From: an uncultured Lachnospiraceae bacterium
GTDB lineage: Bacteria; Bacillota; Clostridia; Lachnospirales; Lachnospiraceae
Direction of reading: 5' to 3'
NCBI GenBank assembly: GCA_902775485.1
Contig: CACYMJ010000017.1
Location: 1-40,633 of the forward strand
DNA: 40,633 nt
The translations under genes were made by a program, and so were the position numbers. Below the pieces are notes generated by a model, which did no database searches, had not been told where the DNA came from, and saw nothing but the letters and a program-made list of their open reading frames with translations. This document shows, in pieces, positions 1,097 to 37,395 of this stretch (positions within the stretch are counted from its first letter, which is position 1; every line of letters starts with the position of its first letter).

Positions 1097-1148
1097 AACC
1101 TTCATTGGAAACCTTGATTTTTCAAGCAATTCCGGTGAAGGTTTTTTT
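1097..1148 (+). terminator. Possible plus-strand terminator overlapping the MATE stop codon
   Basis: AACCTTCA (1097-1104) pairs with TGAAGGTT (1136-1143), which runs into a T tract on the plus strand. The loop is long (about 31 bases) but contains its own small CTTGA/TCAAG stem. It would stop plus-strand transcription arriving from the decayed region before it opposes the MATE operon. The long loop makes the call weak. Confidence 0.35.
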
Positions 1149-2909
1149 GTTAAGCCTTATGGAAAGAACATTTAGGCCCAGAATGTTTTGATAATACATC
1201 TCAGAGGCGATACTCGATACCAGACGGATCCCTATGTTCTTTGTCACATCCTCCTGATCCATCATCTGACGTCTCTGCTCTATATTAAAGGGAACACAGT
1301 CGTCTTTCAGTGAAAGGATCAAAGTATCGGGTTTGCAGGATATGGATACATTTACATTATGTTTCTTACTGTCGGCAGAAAAACCGTGCTTTATGACATT
1401 ACCGGCCATTTCCTCAAGAAAAAGACTTGCAAAGAATGCCCGCCGTCTGTCAACTCCTTTTTCCTGACAGAACTCCTGCAGTTTACCTGAAACAGCCATA
1501 ACACTGTCCATGTCATGCAGAGCGATATCAAGCCGGTAAAACAAAGGAACACCGAAGTCCTTTGGTACAGACATAAGTTCATCGATACTCTTTGGAAAGT
1601 GTTTATTAAATATACATGCGTAGATAAGAACAAAGACAGGAGCTATGAATCCATTCAGCACATTTGCCGTATATACTCCGGACACTCCCATTTTTCCGAT
1701 GAGCAGCGTGGAAAACATAACAACACCCACCACTCCGTCAAGGAATGCGAGAATATGAACCTGTACATGTCTGTCGGATGCCTGCCAATAGCAGGAGAAG
1801 TGGGTAACAATGATAGCAAGCGGCATACAGAACGGCAGGATACGAAATCCCATCACTGTCATCATATATACGGGATCTGACGGGTCCCTGTAATACAGTC
1901 TCGTAAGAGGTTCTGCCAGCAGCATGATGGCAACAGCCATTGCAGTCAGAACAGGAATGAAATTGAATAGAGCTACACGCATGGTATCCGTCAGTGATTT
2001 GCGGTCTTCCTCTCCTACGCTGACACTCATTAACATACGGGATACTACGACCATACCGTTCGGTATGGCCCAGAATAACGAAAGGAAGGAATTCGCCGCC
2101 GTAAATGCCGATATACCCACTGCTCCCACATTTGTAAGGATCAGAGAGTTCACTATCACACCCCTGAGGGCATTGTAAGCATTTCCGACTGCACCCGGTG
2201 CGCCTATCTTTATCATATTTACGGCCTCATGCCAGTTGATTCCCTTAATGCTAAAATGCATTGGGGTGTCCTTTTTCATAAAATAAGGCACCTGTATCAA
2301 AAAGTAAGCCCAAAGGCCGATAGCCGAAGCAAGAGCAAGCCCCAGTGCCTCCAGTCCCATGACACCCACAAACAGATAATTCAACAGGAAATTCAATACT
2401 ATATAGATCAAACTTGCCGTTGTTGTTATCCTGCCTTTATTATCCAGTGAAAGAAATGCAGACAACTGACTTCCGAGTATCAGTGGGATGATACCTACCG
2501 CCTGACCCAAAACATACAGGGTGATCATATGGCTGATGACCGGATCATCGGCAACCGGGTTAAGACTTCCTATCATTCCGAATGCAATATGTCCTGCTGT
2601 CACAACAATTGCAAGGATCCCCGAGACAGCTATATTAAGCGAAAATACATTCTGTATACCGGCCTGATCATTTCTTCCGATGTATTCTCCGCACAGGATA
2701 GTTGCACCGCCGACCAGCATAGAGGTGACTGCCACCAGAGCAAGACTTACGGGGGAATACAGTCCCACTGCTGTCATTGCCTTGACACCGACGAAATTTC
2801 CCGCAAAAAGACTTGATATTATGCCGTTTATCATTCCTACGGATGCCAGCAGGATCTGTACAGGCAGCAGTTTGAACATTACTTTCTGAGTTAGCTTAGC
2901 TTCTCTCAT
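1122..2909 (-). CDS. MATE transporter fused to a C-terminal RsbW-like ATPase domain
   Basis: The product has 595 residues. Residues 1 to about 440 form a twelve-helix MATE/polysaccharide-exporter fold, probably a cation-coupled exporter in the cytoplasmic membrane; typical MATE proteins are about 450 residues, so some 150 are extra. The extra part, about 460-595, resembles the GHKL ATPase of anti-sigma kinases (RsbW/SpoIIAB). It has an N box, FLEEMAGNVIKHGF (E499, E500, N504, H508), a nucleotide-binding LKDDCVPFN segment, and a late NIGIRLV motif. ATG 2909 has AGGTGA six bases upstream. It follows the glycosyltransferase gene by 22 bases and is the last gene of its operon. A second copy of the architecture lies at 7510-9231. 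Substrate unknown. The ATPase may be a regulatory kinase or nucleotide sensor controlling transport; that is inference. Confidence 0.85.
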   Translation of the reverse strand: MREAKLTQKVMFKLLPVQILLASVGMINGIISSLFAGNFVGVKAMTAVGLYSPVSLALVAVTSMLVGGATILCGEYIGRNDQAGIQNVFSLNIAVSGILAIVVTAGHIAFGMIGSLNPVADDPVISHMITLYVLGQAVGIIPLILGSQLSAFLSLDNKGRITTTASLIYIVLNFLLNYLFVGVMGLEALGLALASAIGLWAYFLIQVPYFMKKDTPMHFSIKGINWHEAVNMIKIGAPGAVGNAYNALRGVIVNSLILTNVGAVGISAFTAANSFLSLFWAIPNGMVVVSRMLMSVSVGEEDRKSLTDTMRVALFNFIPVLTAMAVAIMLLAEPLTRLYYRDPSDPVYMMTVMGFRILPFCMPLAIIVTHFSCYWQASDRHVQVHILAFLDGVVGVVMFSTLLIGKMGVSGVYTANVLNGFIAPVFVLIYACIFNKHFPKSIDELMSVPKDFGVPLFYRLDIALHDMDSVMAVSGKLQEFCQEKGVDRRRAFFASLFLEEMAGNVIKHGFSADSKKHNVNVSISCKPDTLILSLKDDCVPFNIEQRRQMMDQEDVTKNIGIRLVSSIASEMYYQNILGLNVLSIRLNKKTFTGIA

Positions 2910-2931
2910 TTTAATTCACCTATCCGGTTTA

Positions 2932-3957
2932 TTAATCTCTTTCATAACAAAGGAACGGAAAGGTCGGAAGCTTTATCTCGTCCTCCGGTAGTTCTCCTGC
3001 AAAGAATTTCATGCCCCGCTGTACCGGCTCAGAATAAAATGACTGATATTTGTATGCACGTTCCATATAACTGTCGATCACAGGACGGCACTCCAGTCTC
3101 TCTTTTTCATCAGCTTCCAGATAAAACAGAATTGTGTGGAAAATATGACGTTCACTGTGTGTGATCATAAGCTTTCTGTCCTCGTCCGACAGCTCCGTCT
3201 GCTCAATAAAATCAATGAGCTTCAAATAAACACATTTATATCCCAGTACTGAATCCATGAGCTTTTTGCTGTACATGACAGAATTCCGGCGCAGCCTTCT
3301 CTCCAAGAGTATCTCACTTATCTGCTCGATCTTTTCTGCATAGTACTGGGTGAAAAATCCGAAATGCTCATCTTCATGAATGACTCCTTCCGGAAAACGT
3401 ACGCCGCATTTTTCCAAAAAGCCTCTGTTATACAGCCTGCGCCATGCGGCAACCGGGTACTCGTTTTTTGTGGTCTCATAAAATTTTATGAGGCTTTCAC
3501 GTCCGTTCATTACCACACCCGTATCGGAACGTATAATGAATTCATCCTTGTGCGACACCACATCTCCTGCAAGGAGCGGATCTGAAGAGAATACCTCTGC
3601 AGAAAAAAACAGTATATCGAGGCCTTTAGAGGTTGCTTCATCAACAAGGAACTGCATAGCATTCTTTTTTAACCTGTCGTCGCTGTCAAGGAAATGTACA
3701 TAATCGCCTTTGGCTATATCCAAACCCGCATTTCTGGCAACAGAAGCTCCCTGGTTCTTTTGATGTATGACCTTTACCCTGTCCGGATACTTTCTGCCAT
3801 ATTCGTCAGCCAGAGCTTCGGAGCCGTCATCCGAGCCGTCATCCACCAAAATGGCTTCAACTTCCGGCAGTGTCTGTGTCAAAACCGAATCGATACATTC
3901 TTTAAGATAATCGACAACATTATAAAAAGGTATTATCACACTTACTCTTATCTGCAC
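2932..3957 (-). CDS. Family 2 glycosyltransferase
   Basis: The protein has 341 residues and starts at GTG 3957, with AAGGAGGG about 9 bases upstream. The N-terminal 110 residues are a GT-A fold of family GT2: SVIIPFYNVVDYLKECIDSV near residues 6-25, VDDGSDDGS near 38-46, the NQGASVARNAGL sugar-nucleotide segment, and the DXD-like DSDD near 91-94 that binds the metal and nucleotide sugar. The C-terminal half is a variable acceptor domain with no membrane segment. It probably transfers a sugar from UDP- or dTDP-sugar to a cell-surface glycan or glycolipid. It lies 29 bases after the Fe-S/thioredoxin gene and 22 before the MATE-ATPase gene, so it is co-transcribed. That context raises the possibility that the downstream MATE-like protein exports a glycosylated product. 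Donor and acceptor are unknown. Confidence 0.85.
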   Translation of the reverse strand: MQIRVSVIIPFYNVVDYLKECIDSVLTQTLPEVEAILVDDGSDDGSEALADEYGRKYPDRVKVIHQKNQGASVARNAGLDIAKGDYVHFLDSDDRLKKNAMQFLVDEATSKGLDILFFSAEVFSSDPLLAGDVVSHKDEFIIRSDTGVVMNGRESLIKFYETTKNEYPVAAWRRLYNRGFLEKCGVRFPEGVIHEDEHFGFFTQYYAEKIEQISEILLERRLRRNSVMYSKKLMDSVLGYKCVYLKLIDFIEQTELSDEDRKLMITHSERHIFHTILFYLEADEKERLECRPVIDSYMERAYKYQSFYSEPVQRGMKFFAGELPEDEIKLPTFPFLCYERD

Positions 3958-3986
3958 TTAATATTACCCTCCTTAGTATTATCTGC

Positions 3987-5894
3987 TTATTTGGCGTTTT
4001 CCAAATATTCCTTCATTCTTTCTTTATACTCTGCGGGATGAGCCCCAAGAATAGGGTTACCTATAAGTTTTCCCCTGCTGTCCACGAAATAAGTGGTGGG
4101 TGTTCCGACTGACTCGAGCACATCGTCATATCCTTCCCATGCACACAGGTTGGTGTAGGTTACGCCGGTATCCTTAACGACAGCTTGTGCTTCATCAAGG
4201 TATTTCATGTTGCTTACCCATACATCGTCAACGATCCCGATGATGGCACCGCCTTTGGCCTGAAATTCTTTGTTTAATTCTTCCAGTTCCGGCATCTCTT
4301 CGATACAGGGGCCGCAGGTTGTTGCCCAGATGTTTATCATGGTCACTTTATTCTGAGAGAACAGAGCTTCGGATGTTACCGGATTTCCGTTAAGATCTAT
4401 GGTTTCAAAAGAAAGATCAGTACCTTCTTCCGTGCCGGTCCAGACCTTGGGAGTATAATATTTCAGACTGCTGATGATCTCATCGGAGGCATCATAGAAT
4501 GCATTGTATTCTTCCATGCTTTCTTTTCTGATATCGTCTGACCTGGGGTCATCTTTTGTCATCCAGACATAACCGTTTTCCTGATGGATCATCTTAAGTA
4601 TAAGGACGGACTGTCTGTCCTCCTCGGAAATCGTGCCATACATCTTTTCCAATGTGGCGAGCATTTTTTCCTTTGCGGCCTCTTCGGAACCGACATCCTT
4701 TACGCATACGATCGTAAAAGAGTGTCCGGCATGAAGCTGAACGGATCCCTGCTCGATCGAAGCGGCATATTCGTCCCTTGGTATGTCGTAATATACAGGC
4801 CAGCCCACCATGACACCGCTGTCATAATCCAAGTCGCCGAGATCTGTTACATCAACAAAACCATTTGAAAAATTCATGTTTTCCGGCAGATCAAAACCGA
4901 ACCCCACTCCTTCGCAGTAATATGTACTATCGCTGCCGGTGGTTATGTCATTGTCCTTTTTGCCGTAGCTTATAAAAGCAAAACACAGGCACATCACCAG
5001 AAGTACAGTACCTATAACCGGTAATACGCCGCCCGGAATTTTTTTGTCCCTTATCCCCATGGAAAGCGCATTTTTCGGACAGGCGTTTATACACTCCCTG
5101 CACCGGATACACTCCGCGCTGTTGGGAGTCTTACAGGGATTTACGTTCATCTTGCAGGTTTTTGCACAGAGTCCGCAGTTTACGCATGCATTCTCATCCA
5201 CGTGCATTTTAACCAGGCTTACTTTTTGGAACAGACCGTAAAATGCACCGAGCGGACAGATGTATTTACAGAAAGGCCGGTAGATGAAAACCGAAGACAG
5301 AATGCAAATGATCAGCAACAGAAATTTCCATCTGAACAGCCATCCCAAGCCCGCGCGCATCGCATCATTAAGAAGTACCAACGGGATGCCGCCCTCGAGT
5401 GTACCGACAGGACAGATGTACTTACAGAAGAATGGTTCGCCGACACCTAATTTTGACCGTACGAAAAACGGAAGTGCAAATACCATTACAAACAGTACGG
5501 CGTATTTTAGGTAACGCAGGGGTTTATCGATCTTATCGGGTATCTTAAGCTTTGGTGTTGGGATTTTATACAGCAGTTCCTGGATAAGGCCGAAAAGGCA
5601 CAGCCATCCGCAGACGAACCGTCCCACTAATAGTCCGATAAGAGCAAGGTATCCGACAACATAAAACGCAAATTTTCTCTGCCGGGCATCAAAAACAGCC
5701 TGCATGGAGCCGATGGGACAGGAGCCCAGGGCACCCGGACAGGAATAGCAGTTCATGCCGGGAACACATATCTTTTTAAGGTCGCCTTTGTAAATGGACG
5801 GACCACCGGGCAGAAATCCTTGTACATATGCGTTCGTAAGGATTCCCCATCCGGCCTGTACGCATTTTCTGAGCGCACCCGGTTTTCTAGCCAA
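3987..5894 (-). CDS. Membrane polyferredoxin fused to a TlpA-like thioredoxin
   Basis: The product has 635 residues. The first 300 resemble NapH/CcoG-type 4Fe-4S proteins: several membrane helices, cysteine-rich segments (CPGMNCYSCPGALGSCPIG; FCKYICPVG; FCKYICPLG), then two 4Fe-4S motifs (CVNCGLCAKTC; CIRCRECINACPKNA). A further helix near 290-310 precedes an extracytoplasmic region of unknown fold to about 490. The last 140 residues are a TlpA/ResA thioredoxin with WATTCGPC (C527, C530) and a cis-Pro-type GTPTTYF. One chain could therefore carry electrons across the membrane and reduce disulfides or methionine sulfoxide repair partners outside the cell. The start is TTG 5894 with GGAG about ten bases upstream, overlapping the microprotein gene by 8 bases, which suggests translational coupling. 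Electron direction and partner are inferred. Confidence 0.85.
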   Translation of the reverse strand: MARKPGALRKCVQAGWGILTNAYVQGFLPGGPSIYKGDLKKICVPGMNCYSCPGALGSCPIGSMQAVFDARQRKFAFYVVGYLALIGLLVGRFVCGWLCLFGLIQELLYKIPTPKLKIPDKIDKPLRYLKYAVLFVMVFALPFFVRSKLGVGEPFFCKYICPVGTLEGGIPLVLLNDAMRAGLGWLFRWKFLLLIICILSSVFIYRPFCKYICPLGAFYGLFQKVSLVKMHVDENACVNCGLCAKTCKMNVNPCKTPNSAECIRCRECINACPKNALSMGIRDKKIPGGVLPVIGTVLLVMCLCFAFISYGKKDNDITTGSDSTYYCEGVGFGFDLPENMNFSNGFVDVTDLGDLDYDSGVMVGWPVYYDIPRDEYAASIEQGSVQLHAGHSFTIVCVKDVGSEEAAKEKMLATLEKMYGTISEEDRQSVLILKMIHQENGYVWMTKDDPRSDDIRKESMEEYNAFYDASDEIISSLKYYTPKVWTGTEEGTDLSFETIDLNGNPVTSEALFSQNKVTMINIWATTCGPCIEEMPELEELNKEFQAKGGAIIGIVDDVWVSNMKYLDEAQAVVKDTGVTYTNLCAWEGYDDVLESVGTPTTYFVDSRGKLIGNPILGAHPAEYKERMKEYLENAK

Positions 5895-6033
5895 GACCGA
5901 TACACTCCATACAGATATTTACGGCCTTCGTCAGGACCGTATCTACCTCTTGACGATAGATGCCGAACGCCATACATGCTATCGCAGCGAGGATCAGAAC
6001 GATTGTTACCCAAATCGGAATTGTCCGTTTCAT
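5887..6033 (-). CDS. CD1871A-family CXXC microprotein
   Basis: A 48-residue protein begins at ATG 6033 with AAAGGA upstream. Residues 7-26 are one hydrophobic helix, followed by a short polar segment and a C-terminal ICMECIGLG with C41 and C44. This layout (one anchor, then CXXC-IGLG at the very end) matches what is annotated as the CD1871A family, a tiny protein regularly found directly before a 4Fe-4S/thioredoxin gene in Clostridia. Its stop TAG at 5889-5887 overlaps the start of the fusion gene. It probably relays electrons or metal for the neighbouring redox protein; no function has been shown that I know of. It is short enough to be missed by automated calling. Confidence 0.8.
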   Translation of the reverse strand: MKRTIPIWVTIVLILAAIACMAFGIYRQEVDTVLTKAVNICMECIGLG

Positions 6034-6118
6034 TGTTTTTTCCTTTCAGGTTTCAGCCGGCCGCTGTTTGTCTGAAGATTGAAGTTACTGAAAATTCTAA
6101 CACAGATAACTGACAAAG

Positions 6119-7513
6119 TCACATTTTCCCACGCAATGCTTTGTCAAAGCTTAGGTCTAAGAAGCTTCTTGGAAAGTGCCCGCAGTTTTTCCACGCAAGA
6201 GCCAGGTTAAAGAGCAACAGCAGGACTTCAGATACGGGCTGCGCAAACCAGATACCGTTTATGCCGACAGTGTTTCCCAGAAAGAGCATAAGAACGGAAT
6301 AGAGCAATACTTCCATCAGATAGTTTAAGTGGGCATATTTTAAAAGGCCCACGGTCTCATACAGGCTGCTGAATGCATTGTTCATCAGGTAGAAGATAAA
6401 GTGCAGGCCGTATATGAACATGAGTTTCAGAGCAATAGTAAAGACCTCACTGCCGTCGCTTTCATTAACAAAGAATTTCAGAATAGGCCATGCCGTAAGC
6501 ATCAGGACAATACCGCCGGATATGGCGATCCTGATAATACTTTTGGCAACAGTACTGACATAGGCATGATATTTCCCGGCATCACGGCTTCCGTATGCGG
6601 TGCCTATTGTCACTAGAACCGCGTAAAAAACTACTGTTTGGAGCAATTCGCCATATTCCACACCATCGCGAAGCGTTATTGCAGCAAGGGCATCTCTGCT
6701 GCCAACGCGCAATACAAGGTTGTTTCGCAAAGCAAATGTTATGACACTGTAAATCCAGCAAAGCAGTTCCGGAAAACCTGTTTTCAGAGAATCCCTCACA
6801 CCTTCAAATCTTGTCATGGGACGGATATCGTAAAACATGGATTCGGTATTTTTTGTACTGATGCGCAGATACAGCAGGATAACAAAGTCTGAGATTATAA
6901 GGCCGAGAAGATAACCGCTCCAGATGCCGGCCATGGTAGGAAAAGAGTCCGAAACAACAGATGTTGTGATTATCTGGACAGCTATGGATATAATACCGAG
7001 GATCAGGGCATTTTTACGCTTTTGATTAAAGATCAGATTGGTCAGAAGGATCATGAGTATACAGAAGAAGGGACCGGCCAGGGAACCTGTAAGGAGAGCT
7101 TCTGTACTTTGACTTCTTAAATGAGCATATTCATCTGCAGCACCCAGAACTGTGATCAGGGGATAGTGGAATGCCCAGCATACCAGTGCGAATGCTGACA
7201 TAATTAAAAATCCCCAGGTAAGACCCGAACATAAATGTATTCGGGCGGACCTTTGATCACCGGTACTTACATCTCTGGCGCAGACGGCCTGTATTCCGGC
7301 AACAACCCAGGCCATTAATGCCATTATCACCGTGATGAGAGGATAGGATATTCCAAAGGCCGCGAGTCCGTCGCTGCCAAGATGCTTTGATATATAGTAA
7401 TCCAGCAGAACTTCCTGCAGGGATTGGACTATGTCTGCGACCAGCATAAAACGAAGAGCTTTATAGAAGATTTTTCTGATGGGTTTTTCCTGATATTCCG
7501 GTGCCATGGTCAT
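6119..7513 (-). CDS. MATE-family transporter without extra domain
   Basis: The protein has 464 residues, the normal MATE length, with about twelve hydrophobic segments and the paired-repeat fold (N-terminal DYYISKHLGSDGLAAFGISYPL and a second half beginning near residue 240). It ends right after the last helix and lacks the ATPase domain of its neighbour. Its ATG at 7513 overlaps the stop of the upstream MATE-ATPase gene by 4 bases (ATGA), so the two are translationally coupled and may act together, perhaps as a heteromer in which only one partner carries the ATPase. Substrate unknown. The next gene downstream, the CXXC microprotein, follows after an 85-base gap. Confidence 0.85.
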   Translation of the reverse strand: MTMAPEYQEKPIRKIFYKALRFMLVADIVQSLQEVLLDYYISKHLGSDGLAAFGISYPLITVIMALMAWVVAGIQAVCARDVSTGDQRSARIHLCSGLTWGFLIMSAFALVCWAFHYPLITVLGAADEYAHLRSQSTEALLTGSLAGPFFCILMILLTNLIFNQKRKNALILGIISIAVQIITTSVVSDSFPTMAGIWSGYLLGLIISDFVILLYLRISTKNTESMFYDIRPMTRFEGVRDSLKTGFPELLCWIYSVITFALRNNLVLRVGSRDALAAITLRDGVEYGELLQTVVFYAVLVTIGTAYGSRDAGKYHAYVSTVAKSIIRIAISGGIVLMLTAWPILKFFVNESDGSEVFTIALKLMFIYGLHFIFYLMNNAFSSLYETVGLLKYAHLNYLMEVLLYSVLMLFLGNTVGINGIWFAQPVSEVLLLLFNLALAWKNCGHFPRSFLDLSFDKALRGKM

Positions 7514-9231
7514 CCCTGTTTTATTTCAAACACATTTCGGTTGTAACTTAAAGCCAGGAAGTGTTTTTTTCTTGAAGATATATTATTTGCCATACTTGAG
7601 ATTATATAGCTCCTGAAGGAACTCGGCATCATATCGCTGTCTGTCATATCAAAAATGATGCCATCGTCCTTGATAACAAGGGTAAGTTTATCTCCCATAA
7701 GTATGGAGCATTCGGCGAGAACGTTCTTTTGGGGATTGTTTTCGCGGATCAGCATAAGCGCCTCTTCAACCAGCAGCATTACCTTGTGTATGGTTTTGTC
7801 TGTATAACCGTATTTCTTAAGGTCGTTTTCCACATTATCCATTACAAAGATGATCTCTTCCTGATTTAAACTGAGTTCATAAAAGAGTGAACGTTTGGAG
7901 TTTTCCTTGTCTGCGATAAACAGCGGATAATTCTCTTTTCCGTAATGTATACGGACATAACCTACAGAGATCAGATAGCTGACCGGCTGGGCCAGCATCA
8001 GGCCGATGGCCATACCGTTTATGCCGCCGATCCATGTACCGATCACTGCAAACGGGAGGGATATGACCACGTCTCTTAAGGCGCAGACAAGCACGCCCAA
8101 AGGTATCTTGTCTATGATTATGTAGTAGGAACTGTCCAGATACAGACGGCTTGTGAATACCATGCTCAGGGAAAGTAATCGCAGTTCCATTGAGGCGAGC
8201 TGTATTGACTGAGGGTCTGTTACCCCGATGATCCTGACCATAAAGGGTGCGAATATCAGGATCAGACCTGTTACCAGTGCGCTCTCGATACGAGAGGTTT
8301 TTTTGGCGTAATGCCATATTTCATGGACACCGCCATAGGTTCCCTCGCCAAGATAAAGGCTTATGAGCGGGGTTATGGCTTCCCCGATACCGTCAAACAG
8401 GATCTGCAGCTCCCTTACAAGAATGACTATTGAAGCCGCAAATATCATGTTCGGGCCGAAGTAATGCAGTACCAGGCGGTTACAGCCAAAAGTAAAGACA
8501 GCGATAAACAGATAGGCGCTGGCATCAACGATGCTGTATTTGACTATGCTTTTGACTGTTTCAATGGAATAATGCAGATTCAGGCGGAGTGAATTACTCT
8601 TTTTAGCAAAGTGGATAGACTGTATTCCAAAGGCCAGGATAATACTCAGAAAAGAAGCCAGCCCCAGTCCTTCAATACCTATAAGGCGGCACAGAAATAC
8701 AGATAAAACGATATTGAAGATTCCTGAGATCAGATTGTTCAGAGTGCTGATAACTTCATCTCCGTCGGCAAACACCATACCTGAAATCAGGGAATCAACC
8801 GGGCTTAGCATTATTACGTATTTCATCCACTTAAGATACCCCTTGGCCAGTTCATATATTTTCGGGGTAGCGTTATAAAACCGAAGATAAGCATCTCCGA
8901 AAAGCAGGATCATCAGTAACAGAACAACACCGATGACTATCGTGATCAGAAGACCTGTACCGAAAGTCTTATCAGCGTCTTCCTTCTGAAAAGCCCCCAT
9001 CTGATGAGAATACAAGATAGGGGCGCCTAAAGAGAACAGTAATGCAAAGAAACTGGCCAGGGAATAGATGGGCATTACAAGATTAACTCCGGCAACGCCG
9101 CTCTCTCCGAGTACCAGTCCGGCAATGAATGTATCGGCCATAAGTACTGCAGTTACGAACAAAGCGGTCAATGTTCCACCGGCAAGCATTGAGTAGTATT
9201 TTGAAGAAATAAAGGTTGATCTGTGCATCAT
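7510..9231 (-). CDS. MATE transporter fused to a degenerate RsbW-like ATPase domain
   Basis: The product has 573 residues: about 440 of MATE-type membrane fold followed by a cytoplasmic domain (about 450-573) with the layout of an RsbW-like GHKL ATPase. The nucleotide-binding Asp segment VIKDDGIIFDMTD is clear. The N box reads LLVEEALMLIREN: both Glu (E489, E490) are kept, but L494 stands where the 1122-2909 protein has the Mg-coordinating Asn (N504). The C-terminal glycine-rich lid is also poor. The domain may bind nucleotide weakly or serve only as a sensor. Start ATG 9231 overlaps the methyltransferase stop by 4 bases; an in-frame ATG follows immediately at 9228. Membership of the MATE family is firm, the ATPase call rests on motif spacing and on comparison with the sister fusion. 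Confidence 0.8.
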   Translation of the reverse strand: MMHRSTFISSKYYSMLAGGTLTALFVTAVLMADTFIAGLVLGESGVAGVNLVMPIYSLASFFALLFSLGAPILYSHQMGAFQKEDADKTFGTGLLITIVIGVVLLLMILLFGDAYLRFYNATPKIYELAKGYLKWMKYVIMLSPVDSLISGMVFADGDEVISTLNNLISGIFNIVLSVFLCRLIGIEGLGLASFLSIILAFGIQSIHFAKKSNSLRLNLHYSIETVKSIVKYSIVDASAYLFIAVFTFGCNRLVLHYFGPNMIFAASIVILVRELQILFDGIGEAITPLISLYLGEGTYGGVHEIWHYAKKTSRIESALVTGLILIFAPFMVRIIGVTDPQSIQLASMELRLLSLSMVFTSRLYLDSSYYIIIDKIPLGVLVCALRDVVISLPFAVIGTWIGGINGMAIGLMLAQPVSYLISVGYVRIHYGKENYPLFIADKENSKRSLFYELSLNQEEIIFVMDNVENDLKKYGYTDKTIHKVMLLVEEALMLIRENNPQKNVLAECSILMGDKLTLVIKDDGIIFDMTDSDMMPSSFRSYIISSMANNISSRKKHFLALSYNRNVFEIKQG

Positions 9232-9932
9232 TTTTCAATATCTTCTTTTACAACAATTGTCAGCATATAACTGCCATCCCCGGGAAGCTCATCGATGCCT
9301 CTGTAGCACATCTCCTGCGGCATACCGCAATCCGATACTGCATAAACCGAAATGCCGGTTTTTTTCCGAAGGATATCTTTGATGCGGCTGATATCCCTTC
9401 CGCATTTCATGATCACCTTTGTTCCTTCGCGATCCAGGATATCTTCGATATGATCGATATCGGGAATGACATGAAGCGGTACATCCTTATCACATAAGGT
9501 TATCCCAAGGCTGTTAGCAACGGCCGTGACAGATGAGATACCGCTTACGGCCTGTGTTTGGATCCCGTCTTCTTCGGCAAGGGCTGCAATATAGGAATAT
9601 GTTGAGTATATCGAAGGATCTCCGATCGTAAGAAAAGTGACCGTTTTTCCTTCCAGGACGAGCTCCTTAACGGTTTTGTATATTTCTTTATGATTATTAT
9701 CGCGCTTTTTTTCATCCTTTACCATTTCGAACTCAAGTGAGAGTGTTTCAATCTCCTCAATTTCGGGAATGACCTGTTTTGCGATCTGATATGCTCTGCA
9801 TTTGGACAGATCTTTTTTCGGACAGATAAGGATATCCGAGCTTTTAATAAGCCTTACGGCTTTGAGTGTTATATCTTCAGGGTCACCGATACCCACACCT
9901 ATTCCGAGTATTTTACCGGTTTTTGATTCCAT
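9228..9932 (-). CDS. cbiL: Precorrin-2/cobalt-factor II C20-methyltransferase-like (CbiL/CobI)
   Basis: The protein belongs to the SAM-dependent tetrapyrrole methylases. It shows the N-terminal GVGIGDPEDITLKAVRLI, the FLTIGDPSIYSTYSYI segment near residues 100-115 that binds SAM, and AVSGISSVTAVANSLGI near 130-150, all typical of CobI/CbiL; length (about 234) also fits. In the cobalamin pathway this enzyme methylates C20 of precorrin-2 or its cobalt form. ATG 9932 is preferred over ATG 9947 because GAGGA lies about 8 bases before it. It is the first gene of a run with two MATE genes, overlapping the next by 4 bases. No other cobalamin gene is in the window. It could supply a corrin pathway encoded elsewhere or modify another tetrapyrrole. 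Confidence 0.8.
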   Translation of the reverse strand: MESKTGKILGIGVGIGDPEDITLKAVRLIKSSDILICPKKDLSKCRAYQIAKQVIPEIEEIETLSLEFEMVKDEKKRDNNHKEIYKTVKELVLEGKTVTFLTIGDPSIYSTYSYIAALAEEDGIQTQAVSGISSVTAVANSLGITLCDKDVPLHVIPDIDHIEDILDREGTKVIMKCGRDISRIKDILRKKTGISVYAVSDCGMPQEMCYRGIDELPGDGSYMLTIVVKEDIEK

Positions 9933-9976
9933 TTTGGTATTCCTCATAACTGTTTTTGTCTTAATTAAACGCCCAT

Positions 9977-30896: not shown

Positions 30897-32489
30897 ATGG
30901 ATCTGTATAAAGTGATCCTTGTCGATGACGAGGAGGAAGTAAGGGAAGCCATAAGGAAAAGGATCAATTGGGAAGAGATCGGATTTACCGTTGCCGGAAC
31001 AGCCGAAAACGGTGAAGAGGCTCTTGAACTTGCGGAGACGTGCGAGCCCGATGTTGTAATGACCGATATACAGATGCCGTTTATGGACGGACTGACGCTT
31101 CTGCGAAAACTCAAGGAAAGATTTCCGGATCTTCGAAGCGTGATCTTTTCCGGGTATGATGATTTTGAATATGCCAAGGAAGCGATCAGGCTTGAGTCCG
31201 AGGAGTATATATTAAAGCCGGTTGATGCCGAGGAGCTGCGCAAGGTATTTGCCAGGATAAAGGACAGACTGGATGAGCAGATCAAGCAGCGGCGAAATGT
31301 GGAACAGCTGTCGAAATACTATGAGGACAGCCGCCCCATGATGAAGGAACAGCTGATCATAGGATTGCTTGAAGGCAGGGAGCTTCAGTTCGATCTTGAA
31401 AGATATCAGAAGGATTTTGATCTGAGGATAGAATCGGCATTCTATTGTGCCGGGGCATTTCGTATTACCGCACCGCAGAATGAAAAGGAAAAGCTTGATA
31501 AAAATCTAATGGCGGTGTCTCTGAAACAGATCGTTGTTGAACGGTTTAAAGGCGTTCTTCCCGTCGAAGCGCTGGTTTATCTTGATACGGTCTGTGTTCT
31601 GGCACGTCTGTCCGGCACAGGACAGTACAGTGTTTTCGTTGAAGAGATGGACAGGATATGCAGGATCGCGCACAGATCACTTGAGGCCAATGTTTGTGCC
31701 GGGATCGGGCGTGTATACGGTAACGCCGAGAGCATTCATACGTCGTTTCTTGAAGCAAAGGATGCATTCCATCACAGGATATTTGTCGGCGAGAACCAGG
31801 CGATCTGTATCAATGACGTGGATCCTACGACGCACATTGAGGACTATATCAGTGAAAAGCAGATCCGCCATATAATCAGGCAGATCAAAGTCGGAACAAG
31901 GGAGAGCCTTGAATCTGAGATCAGGGTTTTCATCGAAAAACTGAAAAAATCGGATTTCGGACCTGCACAGCTTCAGATCTTCTATGCAGAATTCGTTGTG
32001 GAACTGCTAAGGCTCATGAGAGGACACAACATCAATATCGCGGACAGCGGGCTGTCCAACATCAATACCAACGAGGAGATGGAAGGTTTTGCATCTCTTG
32101 ATGAATTCGGCGACAGGCTGATCGAACTGACCGGAAATATATGGGAGCAGATAAGCAATACGAGATTTGACGCCACAAGAAAACTGGCTGAGGAAGCAAA
32201 ACAGTATATAGCGGATCATTATAATGAAAGCAAACTTTCGGTTGATGACATCTGTTCGCATCTCGGAGTGGGAACGTCCTATTTTTCATCCGTGTTCAAA
32301 AAAGAGACCGGAGTCAGTTTCGTTACCTATCTTACGGATGTGCGCATGAACGAGGCGCAGAGGCTTCTTGATACTACCGATGAGAAGAGCTATATTATCG
32401 CGGGACTTGTCGGATATGAAGAGCCGAACTATTTCAGTTATGTATTCAAAAAGCATTTTGGGATATCACCTTCAAAATACAGACAGTAG
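30897..32489 (+). CDS. YesN-type response regulator with AraC-family output
   Basis: The 530-residue cytoplasmic protein has an N-terminal receiver with acidic D10-D11, phosphoacceptor D57 (MTDIQMP), a FSGYDDFEYA switch segment and LKPVDAEEL with the conserved Lys. A long central region (about 130-415) of unknown fold with many charged helices is typical of YesN proteins. Residues 430-530 form two AraC-type helix-turn-helix units ending in YFSYVFKKHFGISPSKYRQ. It follows the sugar transporter genes and precedes its kinase by 21 bases. By analogy with AraPST and XylFII-LytSR of Firmicutes, it probably activates chvE-gguAB when sugar is bound outside; no site for it can be shown from this sequence. 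Confidence 0.93.
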   Translation: MDLYKVILVDDEEEVREAIRKRINWEEIGFTVAGTAENGEEALELAETCEPDVVMTDIQMPFMDGLTLLRKLKERFPDLRSVIFSGYDDFEYAKEAIRLESEEYILKPVDAEELRKVFARIKDRLDEQIKQRRNVEQLSKYYEDSRPMMKEQLIIGLLEGRELQFDLERYQKDFDLRIESAFYCAGAFRITAPQNEKEKLDKNLMAVSLKQIVVERFKGVLPVEALVYLDTVCVLARLSGTGQYSVFVEEMDRICRIAHRSLEANVCAGIGRVYGNAESIHTSFLEAKDAFHHRIFVGENQAICINDVDPTTHIEDYISEKQIRHIIRQIKVGTRESLESEIRVFIEKLKKSDFGPAQLQIFYAEFVVELLRLMRGHNINIADSGLSNINTNEEMEGFASLDEFGDRLIELTGNIWEQISNTRFDATRKLAEEAKQYIADHYNESKLSVDDICSHLGVGTSYFSSVFKKETGVSFVTYLTDVRMNEAQRLLDTTDEKSYIIAGLVGYEEPNYFSYVFKKHFGISPSKYRQ

Positions 32490-32510
32490 GATTTTCACAC
32501 GGAGAAGGAT

Positions 32511-34337
32511 TTGCTGGAGATTTTTTCAAAACCCGTTAATTTCATAAAAGAGGGATACAAAAAAAGAAGTCTTCAATGGACTATCTCACTTTCATATACG
32601 GCGATATCCATCATCAGTATCGCAACTCTTGCCATTGCCTTTTATTCCCATTCCATAAATACGATCAGAGAAAACACGATCAAGGAAAACGAGCAGATCG
32701 TCGATCAGGTGGGCTGGAATCTCAACTCCTATATCAGGAGCATGATGGGGATCTCTGATACGATGTATTACAGCGTGATCAAAAACAGAAACCTGACCAA
32801 TGAGCGTATCAACAAAGAGATGAACCTTCTGTATGAGGCCAACAAGGATAACCTGACGGGTATCGTGTGTGCCACGGAGGACGGGGCGATAGTTGCGGCA
32901 TCTCCCGTGTCGGCGAGGAAGGCCGGCGTTGATCTGAAAAAACAGGAATGGTTCCAGAAGGCTGTTGACGAGATAGAGAATATCCATTTCTCCACGCCGC
33001 ACGTTCAGAATATTTTTGATAACAGTAACTACAGATATTTCTGGGTAGTATCGCTTTCAAGAAGTGTCGAGCTTACATATCTCGGAAATGTCAGAAACGG
33101 TGTTCTGCTCGTTGATATGAATTACAGCGGGATCGAGCAGATGTTTGAAACGGTCAACGACGGAGGCGTGGGATTTGTTTACCTGTGCGATTCGGACGGT
33201 AACATCATCTATCATCCGATGCAGAAGGCCATATATGCAGATCTTGTAAAAGAAAACAATCTGGTTCATGCGAAACATCAGGACGGCGCTTTTTCAGAAA
33301 GATTTGACGGCCAGGAAAGAGACGTTGTCGTTAAAACGGTAGGTTACACGGGATGGAAGATCATAAGCGTCATTCCCACGAGCGAGCTTGCGATCGACAT
33401 GGGAAATATGCGTAACTATCTGTTTATGGTGGCGATCATAGTCCTGATACTGATAGTTTTCGGAAACTATATCATTTCCTATGTCGTTACCGATCCGATA
33501 CGAAAACTTGAGGAATCCATTGCGGACCTTGAGGAAGGTGTTTCCAATGAAGATGTTATGAACGAGGATGATATCTTTATCGGAGGATCCCATGAGATCA
33601 GGCATCTTGGCCGAACGATCAAATCGATGATACGGCAGATGAAGAAGCTTACGGATGAAATGGTCAGGGAGCAGAAGGCAAAGCGAAAGAGCGAGCTTGA
33701 TGCTCTTCAGAGTCAGATCAATCCCCATTTTCTGTATAACACGCTTGATTCCGTTGTATGGATGATCGAGGGTGAGAGGTACAGGGATGCTATCTCAATG
33801 GTGACCGCTCTGGCCCAGCTGTTCAGAATATCTCTGAGCAAAGGCAATAACATAATCAGCATTCATGACGAGATCGTGCACGCAAGGAACTACCTTAACA
33901 TTCAGATGGTCAGATACAAGAATAAGTTCACGGCGAGCATTGATGTGGATCCGGCGATCGAAGACTGTGCAACCATTAAACTGATAGTACAGCCTCTACT
34001 TGAAAATGCCATCTATTACGGAGTCGAGCATATGGACGGCGAGGGAGAGATAAAGGTTCGCGGATATGAAAAGGACGGAGATATATACATTTCCGTTTCA
34101 GATAACGGTATGGGAATACCGGAAGAGACACTTGCCACGCTTCTTACGGATAAGGCAAGAAGCCGCGGAAAGGGATCCGGGATAGGATTGTGGAATGTCA
34201 ATCAGAGGATACAGATCTATTTCAAGGGAGATTACGGACTGATGATCGACAGTGTTCTTGATGAAGGGACAACTGTTACGATACATCTTCCGAAGATCCC
34301 TCTTGAAGAATATCAGAAAGAGGAGGGAGGCCGATGA
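32511..34337 (+). CDS. YesM-type membrane sensor histidine kinase
   Basis: The kinase has 608 residues. One membrane segment near 26-48 and another near 297-320 enclose an extracellular region of about 245 residues with Cache-like features (WFQKAVDEIENIHFSTPHV, GWKIISVIPTSELA). A HAMP-like stretch follows. The His_kinase domain carries QINPHFLYNTLDSV with phosphorylation site H406, and the ATPase has LLENAIYYGVEH, DNGMGIPEE and GKGSGIGLWNV. The start is TTG 32511 with GGAG 6 bases upstream. The next gene overlaps by 4 bases. It should phosphorylate the preceding regulator; the following two binding-protein homologues are likely its extracellular input partners. Confidence 0.92.
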   Translation: MLEIFSKPVNFIKEGYKKRSLQWTISLSYTAISIISIATLAIAFYSHSINTIRENTIKENEQIVDQVGWNLNSYIRSMMGISDTMYYSVIKNRNLTNERINKEMNLLYEANKDNLTGIVCATEDGAIVAASPVSARKAGVDLKKQEWFQKAVDEIENIHFSTPHVQNIFDNSNYRYFWVVSLSRSVELTYLGNVRNGVLLVDMNYSGIEQMFETVNDGGVGFVYLCDSDGNIIYHPMQKAIYADLVKENNLVHAKHQDGAFSERFDGQERDVVVKTVGYTGWKIISVIPTSELAIDMGNMRNYLFMVAIIVLILIVFGNYIISYVVTDPIRKLEESIADLEEGVSNEDVMNEDDIFIGGSHEIRHLGRTIKSMIRQMKKLTDEMVREQKAKRKSELDALQSQINPHFLYNTLDSVVWMIEGERYRDAISMVTALAQLFRISLSKGNNIISIHDEIVHARNYLNIQMVRYKNKFTASIDVDPAIEDCATIKLIVQPLLENAIYYGVEHMDGEGEIKVRGYEKDGDIYISVSDNGMGIPEETLATLLTDKARSRGKGSGIGLWNVNQRIQIYFKGDYGLMIDSVLDEGTTVTIHLPKIPLEEYQKEEGGR

Positions 34338-35308
34338 AAAGAATTCGTGAAAACAAAAGCCTCCTGTTCGTGGTGATCCTGCTGATAGCGTTTTTGCTGA
34401 CGTACATTTATCAGATCAATTTCGAGACGGTAGATGAAAAAGAGCCAAAGCATGTTTCGATGATAGTATACGGAGATGACGCGGAGCGCTGGGAAAATAT
34501 GCGTGACGGCGCACTTCTTGTATGTGAGGAAAGAGGTGCCCAGCTCAGTCTGTTCACAATGCTTTCGGAAAACGATGCACAGGAGCAGAAAGAGATCATA
34601 GAAAGAGAGATAGAAGACGGTGCGGATGCACTTATGATCGCGCCTTGCAACAGTAAAGAGATAAAGGAGTTCATCGACCAGAAGAGACTTCGGATACCCG
34701 TAGTGTATATCGAGAGTATGGAGGATATGTCTCTGGGAGATAAGTCCATAGCAACAGATGATTATGCAATGGGTCGCGCACTCGGAGAAGAGATAGTCGA
34801 AAGCGAAAGTGATATAGTCACGGTCGCGATAATATCGGAGAATACCGAAAGGGACAGCGTTTCCCTAAGGGAAAAGGGCCTGAGGGATGCGATAGAAGGC
34901 AAAGTCGGAAAGATCATAAACTGGTCGCGAAATGAATATAAGACCAACTCCAATACGAGAATGTTCATCCAAAGAGCGATCGTGTCGGAAGCTACGGATG
35001 TTATAGTCGCTTTTGACAATTCAACAACGGATGCTGTACTGGATGCACTTACGAACCTCAACAAGACGAGCAAGGTCTATTCGATCTCAACGTCCAACAA
35101 GGCCGTCTACAATCTGTACAATAAAGAGATAAAAGCGCTTGTCTATCCCGATGAGTTCAGTATGGGTTATCTGTCTGCGATGTACGCGCTTGACAGCTCA
35201 TACGCATCGAGGAAGTATTCGCGCAAAAAGATAGAGTACAGAACGGTCAGAAAGGAGAATATGTATGATGAAGAAAATCAGACATTATTATTCCCGTTCG
35301 TTGATTAG
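34334..35308 (+). CDS. Signal-anchored sugar-binding-protein homologue, probable kinase co-sensor
   Basis: The 324-residue protein begins with an uncleaved-looking membrane anchor (about residues 9-28, SLLFVVILLIAFLLTYIYQI) without a lipobox Cys. The remainder is a type I periplasmic-binding fold related to LacI/RbsB-class proteins: ERWENMRDGALLVCEERGAQL, GADALMIAPCNSKEI, and SIATDDYAMGRALGEEI are in the usual order. The gene overlaps the kinase by 4 bases and lies away from the transporter core, as expected for a sensing rather than a transport role. XylFII of Clostridium beijerinckii, which associates with LytS, is the nearest precedent I know. Ligand unknown. It also overlaps the next gene by 44 bases. 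Confidence 0.8.
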   Translation: MKRIRENKSLLFVVILLIAFLLTYIYQINFETVDEKEPKHVSMIVYGDDAERWENMRDGALLVCEERGAQLSLFTMLSENDAQEQKEIIEREIEDGADALMIAPCNSKEIKEFIDQKRLRIPVVYIESMEDMSLGDKSIATDDYAMGRALGEEIVESESDIVTVAIISENTERDSVSLREKGLRDAIEGKVGKIINWSRNEYKTNSNTRMFIQRAIVSEATDVIVAFDNSTTDAVLDALTNLNKTSKVYSISTSNKAVYNLYNKEIKALVYPDEFSMGYLSAMYALDSSYASRKYSRKKIEYRTVRKENMYDEENQTLLFPFVD

Positions 35309-36335
35309 ACTTATGGCCGTTACCGCTGTCGCAGCATTCCTTATTGCAGGATGCTCATCACAAAATACAGCTCCCGCAAAAGAAGTAAAGATAGCGGTGC
35401 TGACATATGATGAATATGATACGTTCATCAATTCGATGACAAAATACATGACCAGATGGAGCCGGCAGAAAGAGAAAGAGGACGGTATCAGGATAACTCT
35501 TGATATAGTCGGCGCAAAGAAGAGTCAGATCACCCAGAACGAGCAGGCCAGAAAATTCATTACCGAAAAATATGATGTATTGTGCGTCAATCTGGTGGAT
35601 CGTACTGATGCGACGGTCATAATAGACAGAGCAATGGCGGCCGGAACACCGGTAATCTTTTTTAACCGCGAACCTGTTGAGGAAGATCTGTCCAGATGGG
35701 ATAAGCTGTATTATGTCGGAGCAATAGCAAGACAGTCGGGTGAACTTCAGGCGAAGATAATCACGGATGCGCTTTCAGATCCGGAGACTTTTTCGAAGAT
35801 AGATGTAAACGGAAACGGTACGATCCAGTACGTCATGCTTGAAGGAGAAGCCGGACACCAGGATACTCTCGTGCGTACGAACGTGTGCACATCGTCGATA
35901 GTTAACAAAGGTTTTTCACTGGAAAAACTGGGAGATGAATATGCCAACTGGGACAGGGATCAGGCAAGGGCAAAAATGAGGGAACTTGCAGACAGATATC
36001 CCTTCCAGATAGAAATGGTCATTGCGAACAATGACGATATGGCACTTGGTGCGATGGATGCACTGGAGGAGTGCGATTATCCGCTTGATCCTTTCGTGGT
36101 CGGCATAAACGGAACACAGGATGCACTTGAAGCGATCAGAACAATGAAACTTGACGGCAGTGTTTTTAATGATGCCAGAGGCCAGGGAGAGACGATAATG
36201 GAGATGGCATATTCGCTCGGAACCGACAGACCTTTTCCGAAGAGTATTGAATTTACATTTGATAAATATGTTTTTACACCGTATAGTATTATTACGTACG
36301 ATAACGTTCAAAGATATATAAATGCTGACAACTGA
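35265..36335 (+). CDS. MglB-like galactose/glucose-binding lipoprotein in the sensor operon
   Basis: A signal peptide ends in the lipobox LIAGC near residue 30; 356 residues in all. Compared from memory with E. coli MglB, nearly every sugar contact is retained: the Y..D.F trio at the mature start (TYDEYDTF), Asn of FFNREP, His/Asp/Arg of GEAGHQDTLVRT, Trp of NWDRDQA, Asn of IANNDDM, and Asn of VFNDARGQ. One contact differs: MglB's VDA Asp is Asn here (INGTQDAL). A calcium-loop-like DVNGNGTIQ and the later Glu (IEMVIANND) are also kept. So it should bind glucose or galactose. ATG 35265 (or 35268) follows AAAGGAG. It may deliver ligand to the transporter or to the kinase. Confidence 0.85.
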   Translation: MMKKIRHYYSRSLIRLMAVTAVAAFLIAGCSSQNTAPAKEVKIAVLTYDEYDTFINSMTKYMTRWSRQKEKEDGIRITLDIVGAKKSQITQNEQARKFITEKYDVLCVNLVDRTDATVIIDRAMAAGTPVIFFNREPVEEDLSRWDKLYYVGAIARQSGELQAKIITDALSDPETFSKIDVNGNGTIQYVMLEGEAGHQDTLVRTNVCTSSIVNKGFSLEKLGDEYANWDRDQARAKMRELADRYPFQIEMVIANNDDMALGAMDALEECDYPLDPFVVGINGTQDALEAIRTMKLDGSVFNDARGQGETIMEMAYSLGTDRPFPKSIEFTFDKYVFTPYSIITYDNVQRYINADN

Positions 36336-36354
36336 AGATCTGGGAGGATGGAAG

Positions 36355-37395
36355 ATGCGAGTATTTGAAGGATACCAGAAGGGAGTAAATCTCGGAGGGT
36401 GGCTGTCGCAGTGTGTTTCATATGACAAAGCACACTTTGACGGTTTTATTACCAAAAAGGACATAGAGGATATCGCTTCATTTGGCCTGGATCATGTAAG
36501 AGTTCCGGTTGATTATGATGTGTTCATGAAGGAAGTATCAGGAGAGGATGTTGTCAATGAAGAGGGAATGTCCCACATTGAGGATTGTATCGGATGGTGC
36601 AGGGACTGCGGACTTAACATGATACTTGATCTTCATAAGGCAAAGGGATATATGTTCGATTCCGAGGCAGTTGAAAATGCCGACCTGTTTTTTGAGGATG
36701 AGATGCTGCAGAATGTTTTCTACGAAACATGGGAAATGTTCGCGCAGAGGTTCGGAAAGTACAAGGATATGCTTGCGTTTGAACTGCTCAATGAAGTCGT
36801 GAACGCGGACTATGAATCCAAGTGGAACGAGATCGCGGCAAATGCGATAAAGAGGATCCGCGCCATAGTGCCCGATATATATATCATAGTAGGCGGAGTA
36901 CATTACAACAATGTCTTTGCGGTTCCCGGAATAAAAGTTCCCGTGGATGACAGGACAGTGTTTAATTTCCACTGCTATGAACCGCTTTGCTTTACCCATC
37001 AGAAGGCATACTGGGTTCCCGGCATGACGAAGGATTATGATATGTTCTATCCCGCGGATATTGAAACGATGAGGAAAAAGAGCGAGGAATTCTCTCCCGA
37101 TCATATGGGTGCGGTGTTCAATGAATGCCTTGATGACGGAGGTCCGCTTTTTGACAAGATGTTCAGGCAGGCATGTGACTACGCCGAGGAAAAGGGTGTT
37201 CCGCTTTATTGCGGAGAATACGGCGTAATAGATCAGGCCCCGCTTCCCGATACCCTGGCATGGCTTCGCGACATCAATGCAAGCTTTAAAAAGTTCGGGA
37301 TAGGAAGAGCTCTGTGGAACTATAAGAACAAAGATTTCGGTCTTGTTGATGAGCATTATGCTCCGATAAGAAAAGAGATGATCGAGGCACTGTGA
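36355..37395 (+). CDS. Glycoside hydrolase family 5 enzyme, no signal peptide
   Basis: The 346-residue enzyme starts GYQKGVNLGGWLSQCVSYD, typical of GH5 (endoglucanase/exo-beta-glucanase class). HVRVPVDYDVF, ILDLHKAKGY, acid/base E147 in LLNEVV, FNFHCYEPLCFTHQ, and nucleophile E288 in YCGEYG complete the retaining active site. ATG 36355 lies 7 bases after GGGAGG; the earlier in-frame ATG at 36322 overlaps the preceding gene. There is neither signal peptide nor binding module, so it acts in the cytoplasm, probably on imported beta-linked oligosaccharides or aryl glycosides. It is the last gene of the sensor operon. Exact specificity (beta-1,4-glucan, mannan, other) is not decided. Confidence 0.88.
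   Translation: MRVFEGYQKGVNLGGWLSQCVSYDKAHFDGFITKKDIEDIASFGLDHVRVPVDYDVFMKEVSGEDVVNEEGMSHIEDCIGWCRDCGLNMILDLHKAKGYMFDSEAVENADLFFEDEMLQNVFYETWEMFAQRFGKYKDMLAFELLNEVVNADYESKWNEIAANAIKRIRAIVPDIYIIVGGVHYNNVFAVPGIKVPVDDRTVFNFHCYEPLCFTHQKAYWVPGMTKDYDMFYPADIETMRKKSEEFSPDHMGAVFNECLDDGGPLFDKMFRQACDYAEEKGVPLYCGEYGVIDQAPLPDTLAWLRDINASFKKFGIGRALWNYKNKDFGLVDEHYAPIRKEMIEAL

Follow-up and report, generated by a model that had tools for sequence, protein, structure and literature searches.

Two MATE transporters with RsbW-like C-terminal domains in a Lachnospiraceae genome, and candidate partner-switch genes near their relatives

The window discussed here is the whole 40,633-nucleotide stretch analysed, contig CACYMJ010000017.1 of an uncultured Lachnospiraceae bacterium (assembly GCA_902775485.1). 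It includes two genes for MATE transporters that carry a C-terminal tail related to the GHKL ATPase domain of the kinase RsbW, and we refer to proteins of this type as fused MATEs. P0001 has 595 residues (1122..2909) and P0002 has 573 (7510..9231); both are on the minus strand, as are all their parts given below, and both match the Pfam family MatE (E 3.8e-14 and 1.9e-25 respectively). Beside P0002 is P0003 (6119..7513, minus strand), a plain MATE of 464 residues that also matches MatE and overlaps P0002 by 4 nucleotides (ATGA). A sequence-only reading of this DNA, made by a model without database searches, had picked out the two long open reading frames (ORFs) and the pairing of one of them with a plain MATE, and these observations hold. 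It had also put an RsbW-like GHKL domain, with N-box and nucleotide-binding Asp, on both proteins, and here the two tails have to be taken separately.

In the case of P0001 the tail, residues 455-595 (1125..1547), matches HATPase_c_2 over residues 468-576 with 34.1 bits (E 3.1e-8), Pfam's cut-off being 27.4. A profile of 38 tails has RsbW (6m36) as its top match among PDB sequences (E 2.3e-4), and phmmer with the single P0001 tail as query gave no match to PDB sequences. The model of the tail has the order strand-helix-helix-strand-strand-helix-helix-strand-strand, and it is from this helix and strand order that the Bergerat fold is assigned to P0001, the assignment for P0002 being from a fold search with the tail model. 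When the full P0001 model is searched with Foldseek and VIA the large domain dominates, and only MATE and related flippases are among the matches listed. The tail keeps an N-box, LEEMAGNVIKHGF, together with Asp536 and an NIGI loop; the names N-box and G1-box are those that we take to apply to these motifs. In the alignment of fused MATEs the N-box (in P0001 EEMAGNVIKHGF, residues 499-510, 1380..1415) has Glu500 in 161 of 161 sequences and the Mg-binding Asn504 in 130. The G1-box of P0001 is DDCVPF (residues 536-541, 1287..1304), and its Asp536 is found in 150 of the 161; position 538, that of the G1-box Gly, is Cys in 112, P0001 included, and Gly in 41. The P0001 tail is under purifying selection as strong as that on the MATE part, with dN/dS (ratio of nonsynonymous to synonymous substitution rates) of 0.09-0.15 against 0.08-0.14 for the MATE part; five of the six comparisons gave these tail values, and the sixth was saturated.

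The tail of P0002, residues 445-573 (7513..7899), has no family match in Pfam or NCBIfam, and is recognised by profile comparison and predicted fold. With hhalign the P0002-type tails match P0001-type tails (98.3%, E 1.2e-14) and a set of 15 RsbW domains (95.8%, E 7e-9), the latter score having been 97.6% before three cut-off MATE tails were removed from the RsbW set and the P0002-type alignment was enlarged. A STAS profile run as a control against an earlier nine-sequence P0002-type alignment gave 0.2%. The predicted structure of the P0002 tail (predicted local distance difference test score, pLDDT, 90.5) has the Bergerat fold, and a fold search with it puts SpoIIAB, RsbW and UsfX on top, the best solved matches being anti-sigma kinases, mostly solved with their STAS antagonist. 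Four residues are invariant in the P0002-type alignment, and the Asp is retained in P0002 (in DDG), but the N-box, EEALMLIREN, has Leu where the Mg-binding Asn is expected, and this Asn is missing from 23 of 23 aligned P0002-type tails. P0002 is for this reason probably a pseudokinase, and we therefore describe it as a degenerate relative and do not class it as a kinase. The earlier claim is thus correct in full for P0001, whereas for P0002 the domain stands on hhalign and fold, with the Asp present and the N-box Asn lacking. The tail of P0001 could phosphorylate a partner, as had also been proposed, but that of P0002, without the Mg-binding Asn, is unlikely to do so.

A third fused MATE, P0004 (584 residues), is on contig C35 of the same genome; a further MATE match, in an ORF of 548 residues on contig C53, has no HATPase_c_2 match and is presumably a SpoVB-like flippase. 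Genome contigs scanned with two peptide patterns from the tail gave at least 596 stretches, of which at least 517 were confirmed and 80 kept, and we call these 80 the tail-selected loci. By their record titles they are mainly from uncultured Lachnospiraceae, Erysipelotrichaceae/Solobacterium, Oscillospiraceae, Clostridiales and Butyrivibrio, many from ruminant gut, with one Spirochaetaceae metagenome-assembled genome. Tail and MATE share one frame in 77 of the 80, and in the other three (L127, L130 and L173) there is no MATE in the frame of the tail. A tail match at E<=1e-12 is present in 13 of the 398 genomes of a phylum sample, and the family is therefore patchy; in 10 of the 13, our genome included, the match is in a frame of 574-638 residues, a count of tail matches irrespective of MATE. 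A family sample of 397 genomes gave 15, again including our own, with a P0002-type match at E<=1e-100 that reaches the end of the model. Judged by these sequences the MATE-GHKL architecture is that of a paralogous family of rumen and gut Firmicutes. Four fused MATEs from the same genus as ours (L082, L083, L084 and L085) are longer, at 836-901 residues, with a long C-terminal extension that in the two scanned with Pfam (L082 and L084) contains an HD-CE domain (E 1.3e-38 and 1.1e-37), and this type would be a transporter-GHKL-hydrolase chain. We found no open-access paper with the term "HD-CE domain".

Partner switching is well known from the sigma factors of sporulation and stress, with SpoIIAB or RsbW, SpoIIAA or RsbV, and SpoIIE or RsbU as its components. 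The sequence-only reading had suggested a partner like an anti-sigma-factor antagonist, and genes of this kind are indeed found near fused MATEs in the tail-selected loci: STAS, PP2C (SpoIIE) and free RsbW genes, and the combinations STAS-APH, STAS-APH-RsbW and PP2C-RsbW. A STAS, PP2C or RsbW gene is within 3 kb in 20 of 73 non-redundant loci, and in 14 of the 42 that have at least 3 kb on both flanks. The 33 partner ORFs of the 73 loci (38 domain hits) share the strand of the MATE gene without exception.

A control with plain MATEs was needed because the neighbour profiles had been seeded from tail-selected loci. It was drawn from one family-wide search, in which MATE frames of about 560-760 residues with a match into the tail region (long-frame MATEs) were compared with plain frames of about 430-480 residues; P0002-type rows (counted apart), the C35 protein of our own genome, partial frames, and rows of about 485-600 residues matching the MATE part only were excluded. 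The first set was picked by hand before the neighbours were seen, about a dozen stronger fused rows being passed over, and has a partner within 3 kb in 8 of 20 long-frame and 0 of 20 plain MATEs. The second comprises most of the other long-frame rows (5 of its 21 entries being in loci with neighbours already known) and 20 plain rows, and gives 8 of 21 against 0 of 20. Over both sets 16 of 41 long-frame MATEs and 0 of 40 plain MATEs have STAS, PP2C or RsbW within 3 kb (p=4.9e-6), and 20 of 41 and 0 of 40 have one within about 8 kb, with some genomes supplying two or three entries and some flanks short. A tail hit is present in 37 of the 41 long-frame MATEs, and these 37 include all 16 with a partner.

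With regard to the P0002 type, a partner is near the MATE in 7 of 23 loci, the limit being 3 kb for PP2C and RsbW and 3.5 kb for STAS. The gene order is MATE-PP2C-STAS in L096, L097 and L233, and in L237 it is PP2C-MATE with STAS 1.6 kb further on. In our own genus, independent Pfam searches for STAS and PP2C gave the order fused MATE-STAS-PP2C in L290 and fused MATE-GNAT-PP2C in L292, with L291 and L295 likewise by length and order, and STAS-APH adjoins fused MATEs in L293 and L294. By pattern, SSAG or SSSG is present in 55 of the 58 distinct STAS sequences from the fetched loci, and these STAS proteins bear a predicted phosphorylatable Ser. Five of the seven PP2C neighbours scanned with Pfam (those of L292, L290, L191, L245 and L181, and not those of L139 and L096) carry dCache, HAMP or 5TMR. 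In L201 (6158-7756), L140, L151 and L189 the STAS, APH-like and RsbW domains are in a single protein of 517-532 residues, followed by a PHP-like gene.

From the architecture, the fold, the state of the motifs, the selection on the P0001 tail and the neighbourhood in relatives we infer STAS binding, kinase activity, gating and a direction of control. We suggest, with a probability of about one half, that fused MATEs are transporter-tethered partner-switch proteins, in which docking and phosphorylation of a STAS protein at the tail gates the transporter. The tail would be the RsbW/SpoIIAB-type member of a STAS-RsbW-PP2C switch, fused to a MATE and not acting on a sigma factor. An unphosphorylated STAS protein would dock on it; the Ser would then be phosphorylated and the STAS protein released, either by the tail itself in the P0001 type or by a free RsbW elsewhere, and a SpoIIE-type PP2C, often with sensor domains of its own, would reset the STAS protein. 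Docking would gate the transporter, which would be the client in place of the sigma factor, and P0002-type tails, lacking the Mg-binding Asn, would bind STAS but not phosphorylate it. The sequences suggest, then, that a known gene-control switch has been put to new use, with transporters as its target or its input. Our genome, which is 84% complete, has one STAS match and one RsbW-sized HATPase_c_2 protein on contig C4 and one strong PP2C on contig C7, and as a further step these might serve its three fused MATEs.

There are also observations that weigh against this proposal. Neither fused MATE of the window has a STAS, PP2C or RsbW gene as neighbour, so that the suggested antagonist-like partner is seen in relatives and not at this locus. 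No partner is within 3 kb in 53 of the 73 tail-selected loci (short contigs included), for 25 of the 41 long-frame MATEs that were compared with plain ones, or in 16 of the 23 P0002-type loci. For the 34 fused MATEs in the first 32 loci (28 own-genus), STAS or PP2C is within 3 kb only at L119, of our genus, and at L120 and L121, and the further cases in our genus surfaced only through searches for STAS and PP2C. Beyond the 73 loci the partner is sometimes on the other strand from the MATE (L245 and L273). The neighbourhood moreover carries no direction. A transporter that serves as sensor would also agree with it, and would fit at least as well with the loss of acidic residues described next.

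The N-lobe acidic pair D41/D184 is the basis of proton coupling of the PfMATE type. The plain controls have Asp at both equivalent positions in 20 of 20, whereas P0001 has Ser/Asn and P0002 Asp/Ser; P0003 has Leu/Thr, yet with an Asp one residue on, which makes its first position uncertain. Both acids are kept in just 51 of 161 fused MATEs, four rows being unreadable at the first position. P0001 is thus a MATE by MatE profile and MATE fold that differs from PfMATE/DinF-type MATEs in having no equivalents of D41/D184 and in its extra GHKL tail. This would suit a transceptor, in which the MATE domain senses. The tail kinase would then be under the control of the occupancy or conformation of that domain and would phosphorylate STAS for a downstream response. 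There is precedent among transporter-histidine kinase proteins in CbrA, where, as summarised in PMC13022988 and PMC7096432, the transporter domain is thought to control the fused kinase. We regard a transceptor as the main alternative, possible but less likely than gating. P0002-type tails look catalytically dead, which would leave no kinase output, yet can keep PP2C and STAS neighbours, and most of the scanned PP2C neighbours already have a sensor-type domain; it is for these two reasons that we favour gating of the transporter. The nonribosomal peptide synthetase (NRPS) genes beside some fused MATEs, to which we return, also hint at export.

It is unlikely that the fused MATEs are standard cation-coupled exporters with a tail for assembly or stability only and no STAS partner. 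The lack of switch genes near most single loci, the window included, would be as expected for such a tail; the conservation of N-box Glu (161/161) and Asn (130/161), the excess of STAS, PP2C and RsbW genes near fused MATEs compared with plain ones and the frequent loss of the acidic pair would not. A role for the tail on its own, with ATP bound either as a nucleotide signal or as the direct energy source of export and with no partner protein, is in our view very improbable: P0001 does retain nucleotide-binding motifs, but all 23 P0002-type tails lack the Mg-binding Asn, the nearest families are partner-switch protein kinases and not transport ATPases, and the neighbouring genes point to STAS. 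An ATPase-driven exporter was likewise considered and found to be unsupported. A passenger fusion without function, which the degenerate motifs of P0002-type tails might bring to mind, is hardly credible in view of the selection on the P0001 tail, as strong as that on the MATE part, and the four invariant residues of the P0002 type.

The gating proposal can be set beside known systems. The resemblance to the SpoIIAB/RsbW anti-sigma serine kinases is in the fold of the tail, the N-box of P0001, the STAS and PP2C genes beside relatives and the Ser motif of the STAS proteins; the differences are that the tail is joined to a MATE, that the G1 Gly is often Cys and that the P0002 type has no Mg-binding Asn. 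SulP/SLC26 transporters have a C-terminal STAS domain, and are thus likewise transporters with a partner-switch domain, but there the STAS half is fused and here the kinase half. SiaABCD includes a STAS-like protein, a kinase and a phosphatase. In Pseudomonas aeruginosa it is described as a switch with the diguanylate cyclase SiaD as client (PMC8457831 and PMC7647112, in summary). Fused MATEs resemble it in having a client that would not be a sigma factor, and SiaB (6kko) is among the fold matches of the P0002 tail; however the SiaABCD client is a cyclase not fused to the kinase, while here the client would be the fused transporter. CbrA and CrbS are presented as SLC5-histidine kinase proteins (summaries of PMC13022988, PMC7096432 and PMC5715377). 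They too combine transporter and kinase in one chain, the kinase having a GHKL ATPase domain, but in the fused MATEs the transporter is MATE and not SLC5, and the kinase is of the anti-sigma type, with STAS, where CbrA and CrbS have a histidine kinase and a response regulator; Pfam gave no match to a His_kinase or HisKA family in P0001 or P0002. By the features tested, fused MATEs belong to neither the SiaABCD nor the CbrA type.

The sequence-only reading knew of no experimental description of this architecture, and we also found none of a MATE with such a tail in the open-access literature, judged by titles and the starts of abstracts, subscription papers and architecture databases being outside that scope. 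InterPro, we presume, may already list the combination of MatE and HATPase_c_2. In the portion of PMC9540692 consulted, HATPase_c_2 appears in a list and not fused to MATE. MATE transporters are regarded as self-sufficient antiporters. If our proposal is true, the post-translational switching of sporulation and stress sigma factors also controls, or answers to, membrane transport. The question is now directly testable, through STAS binding to the tail and its effect on transport.

NRPS-like genes are found beside P0002-type or other fused MATEs in L095, L096, L097, L099, L101 and L241 (969-1015 residues) and in L247 (3008 residues), with Pfam scans for L096, L101 and L247 and the others called by similarity. 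Of the P0002-type loci, 6 of 23 have such a neighbour, as do 6 of the 21 matched fused MATEs; there is none in 72 tail-selected loci or beside 20 plain controls, and the linkage is therefore not general. They give a hint as to the transported substrate.

There are also four SDF-like transporters with an N-terminal, degenerate RsbW-like stretch (L162:4850-6499, L148:4852-6498, L178:1404-3065 and L104:12168-13811). The stretch matches the first RsbW set, which still held the three cut-off MATE tails, at 95.9% (E 6e-9); the Pfam SDF match is shown for L162, and the other three are assigned by likeness to the L162 protein. These are a second type of transporter bearing an RsbW-like domain. Two of the four genes belong to a gene run that also includes STAS-APH, STAS, RsbW and a fused MATE. 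A wider view, which we think rather doubtful, is that there is a separate, lineage-wide class of partner switches in rumen and gut Firmicutes with transporters as clients, in which GHKL domains would have been joined to MATE and, separately, to SDF, some of the MATEs adding an HD-CE hydrolase, and in which STAS phosphorylation would, in the NRPS branch, time the export of a peptide-like product.

In the window, P0002 is preceded by a gene for a CobI/CbiL-like precorrin-2 C20-methyltransferase (9228..9947, minus strand; TIGR01467, 170.5 bits against a cut-off of 163.25) that overlaps its start by 4 nucleotides. P0002 and P0003 both begin in an ATGA overlap with the preceding gene, and the three genes therefore look like one operon, with the CobI-like gene probably the first. 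The three other TP_methylase matches of the genome are on contig C40, apart from this gene. The closest relative of P0003 in the fetched loci, other than itself, is a plain MATE in L233 (E 1e-36), of another genus, which adjoins a P0002-type gene and stands by PP2C and STAS; the next are fused MATEs. P0003 may therefore be a fused MATE that has lost its tail. There would then be a natural series for the passage from kinase to binding module: a tail with kinase motifs, a pseudokinase tail, a tail with HD-CE, and a tail apparently lost. Pairing with a plain MATE was dropped as a signature of the family, since plain controls too can have another MATE within 3 kb (6 of 20), the figures being 3 of 21 for matched fused MATEs and 5 of 23 for P0002-type loci.

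Upstream of P0001 by 22 nucleotides is a GT2 glycosyltransferase gene (2932..3957, minus strand; Pfam Glycos_transf_2), and 29 nucleotides upstream of that is a gene for a NapH-like ferredoxin membrane protein with a thioredoxin domain (3987..5894, minus strand; Pfam Fer4_5 and AhpC-TSA, with NCBIfam napH_ below cut-off). Relatives of P0001 in L087 and L088 also have glycosyltransferase-like ORFs upstream, a call made from the first residues of these ORFs. No switch genes were seen near the relatives of P0001, though some had such glycosyltransferase-like ORFs nearby. Near the contig end a short ORF (171-773) with a DUF772 transposase domain is perhaps a truncated insertion element. Further along the window, at 30897-37395, are genes for an AraC-type response regulator and a dCache histidine kinase, adjoining two periplasmic-binding-protein-like genes and a GH5 cellulase gene.

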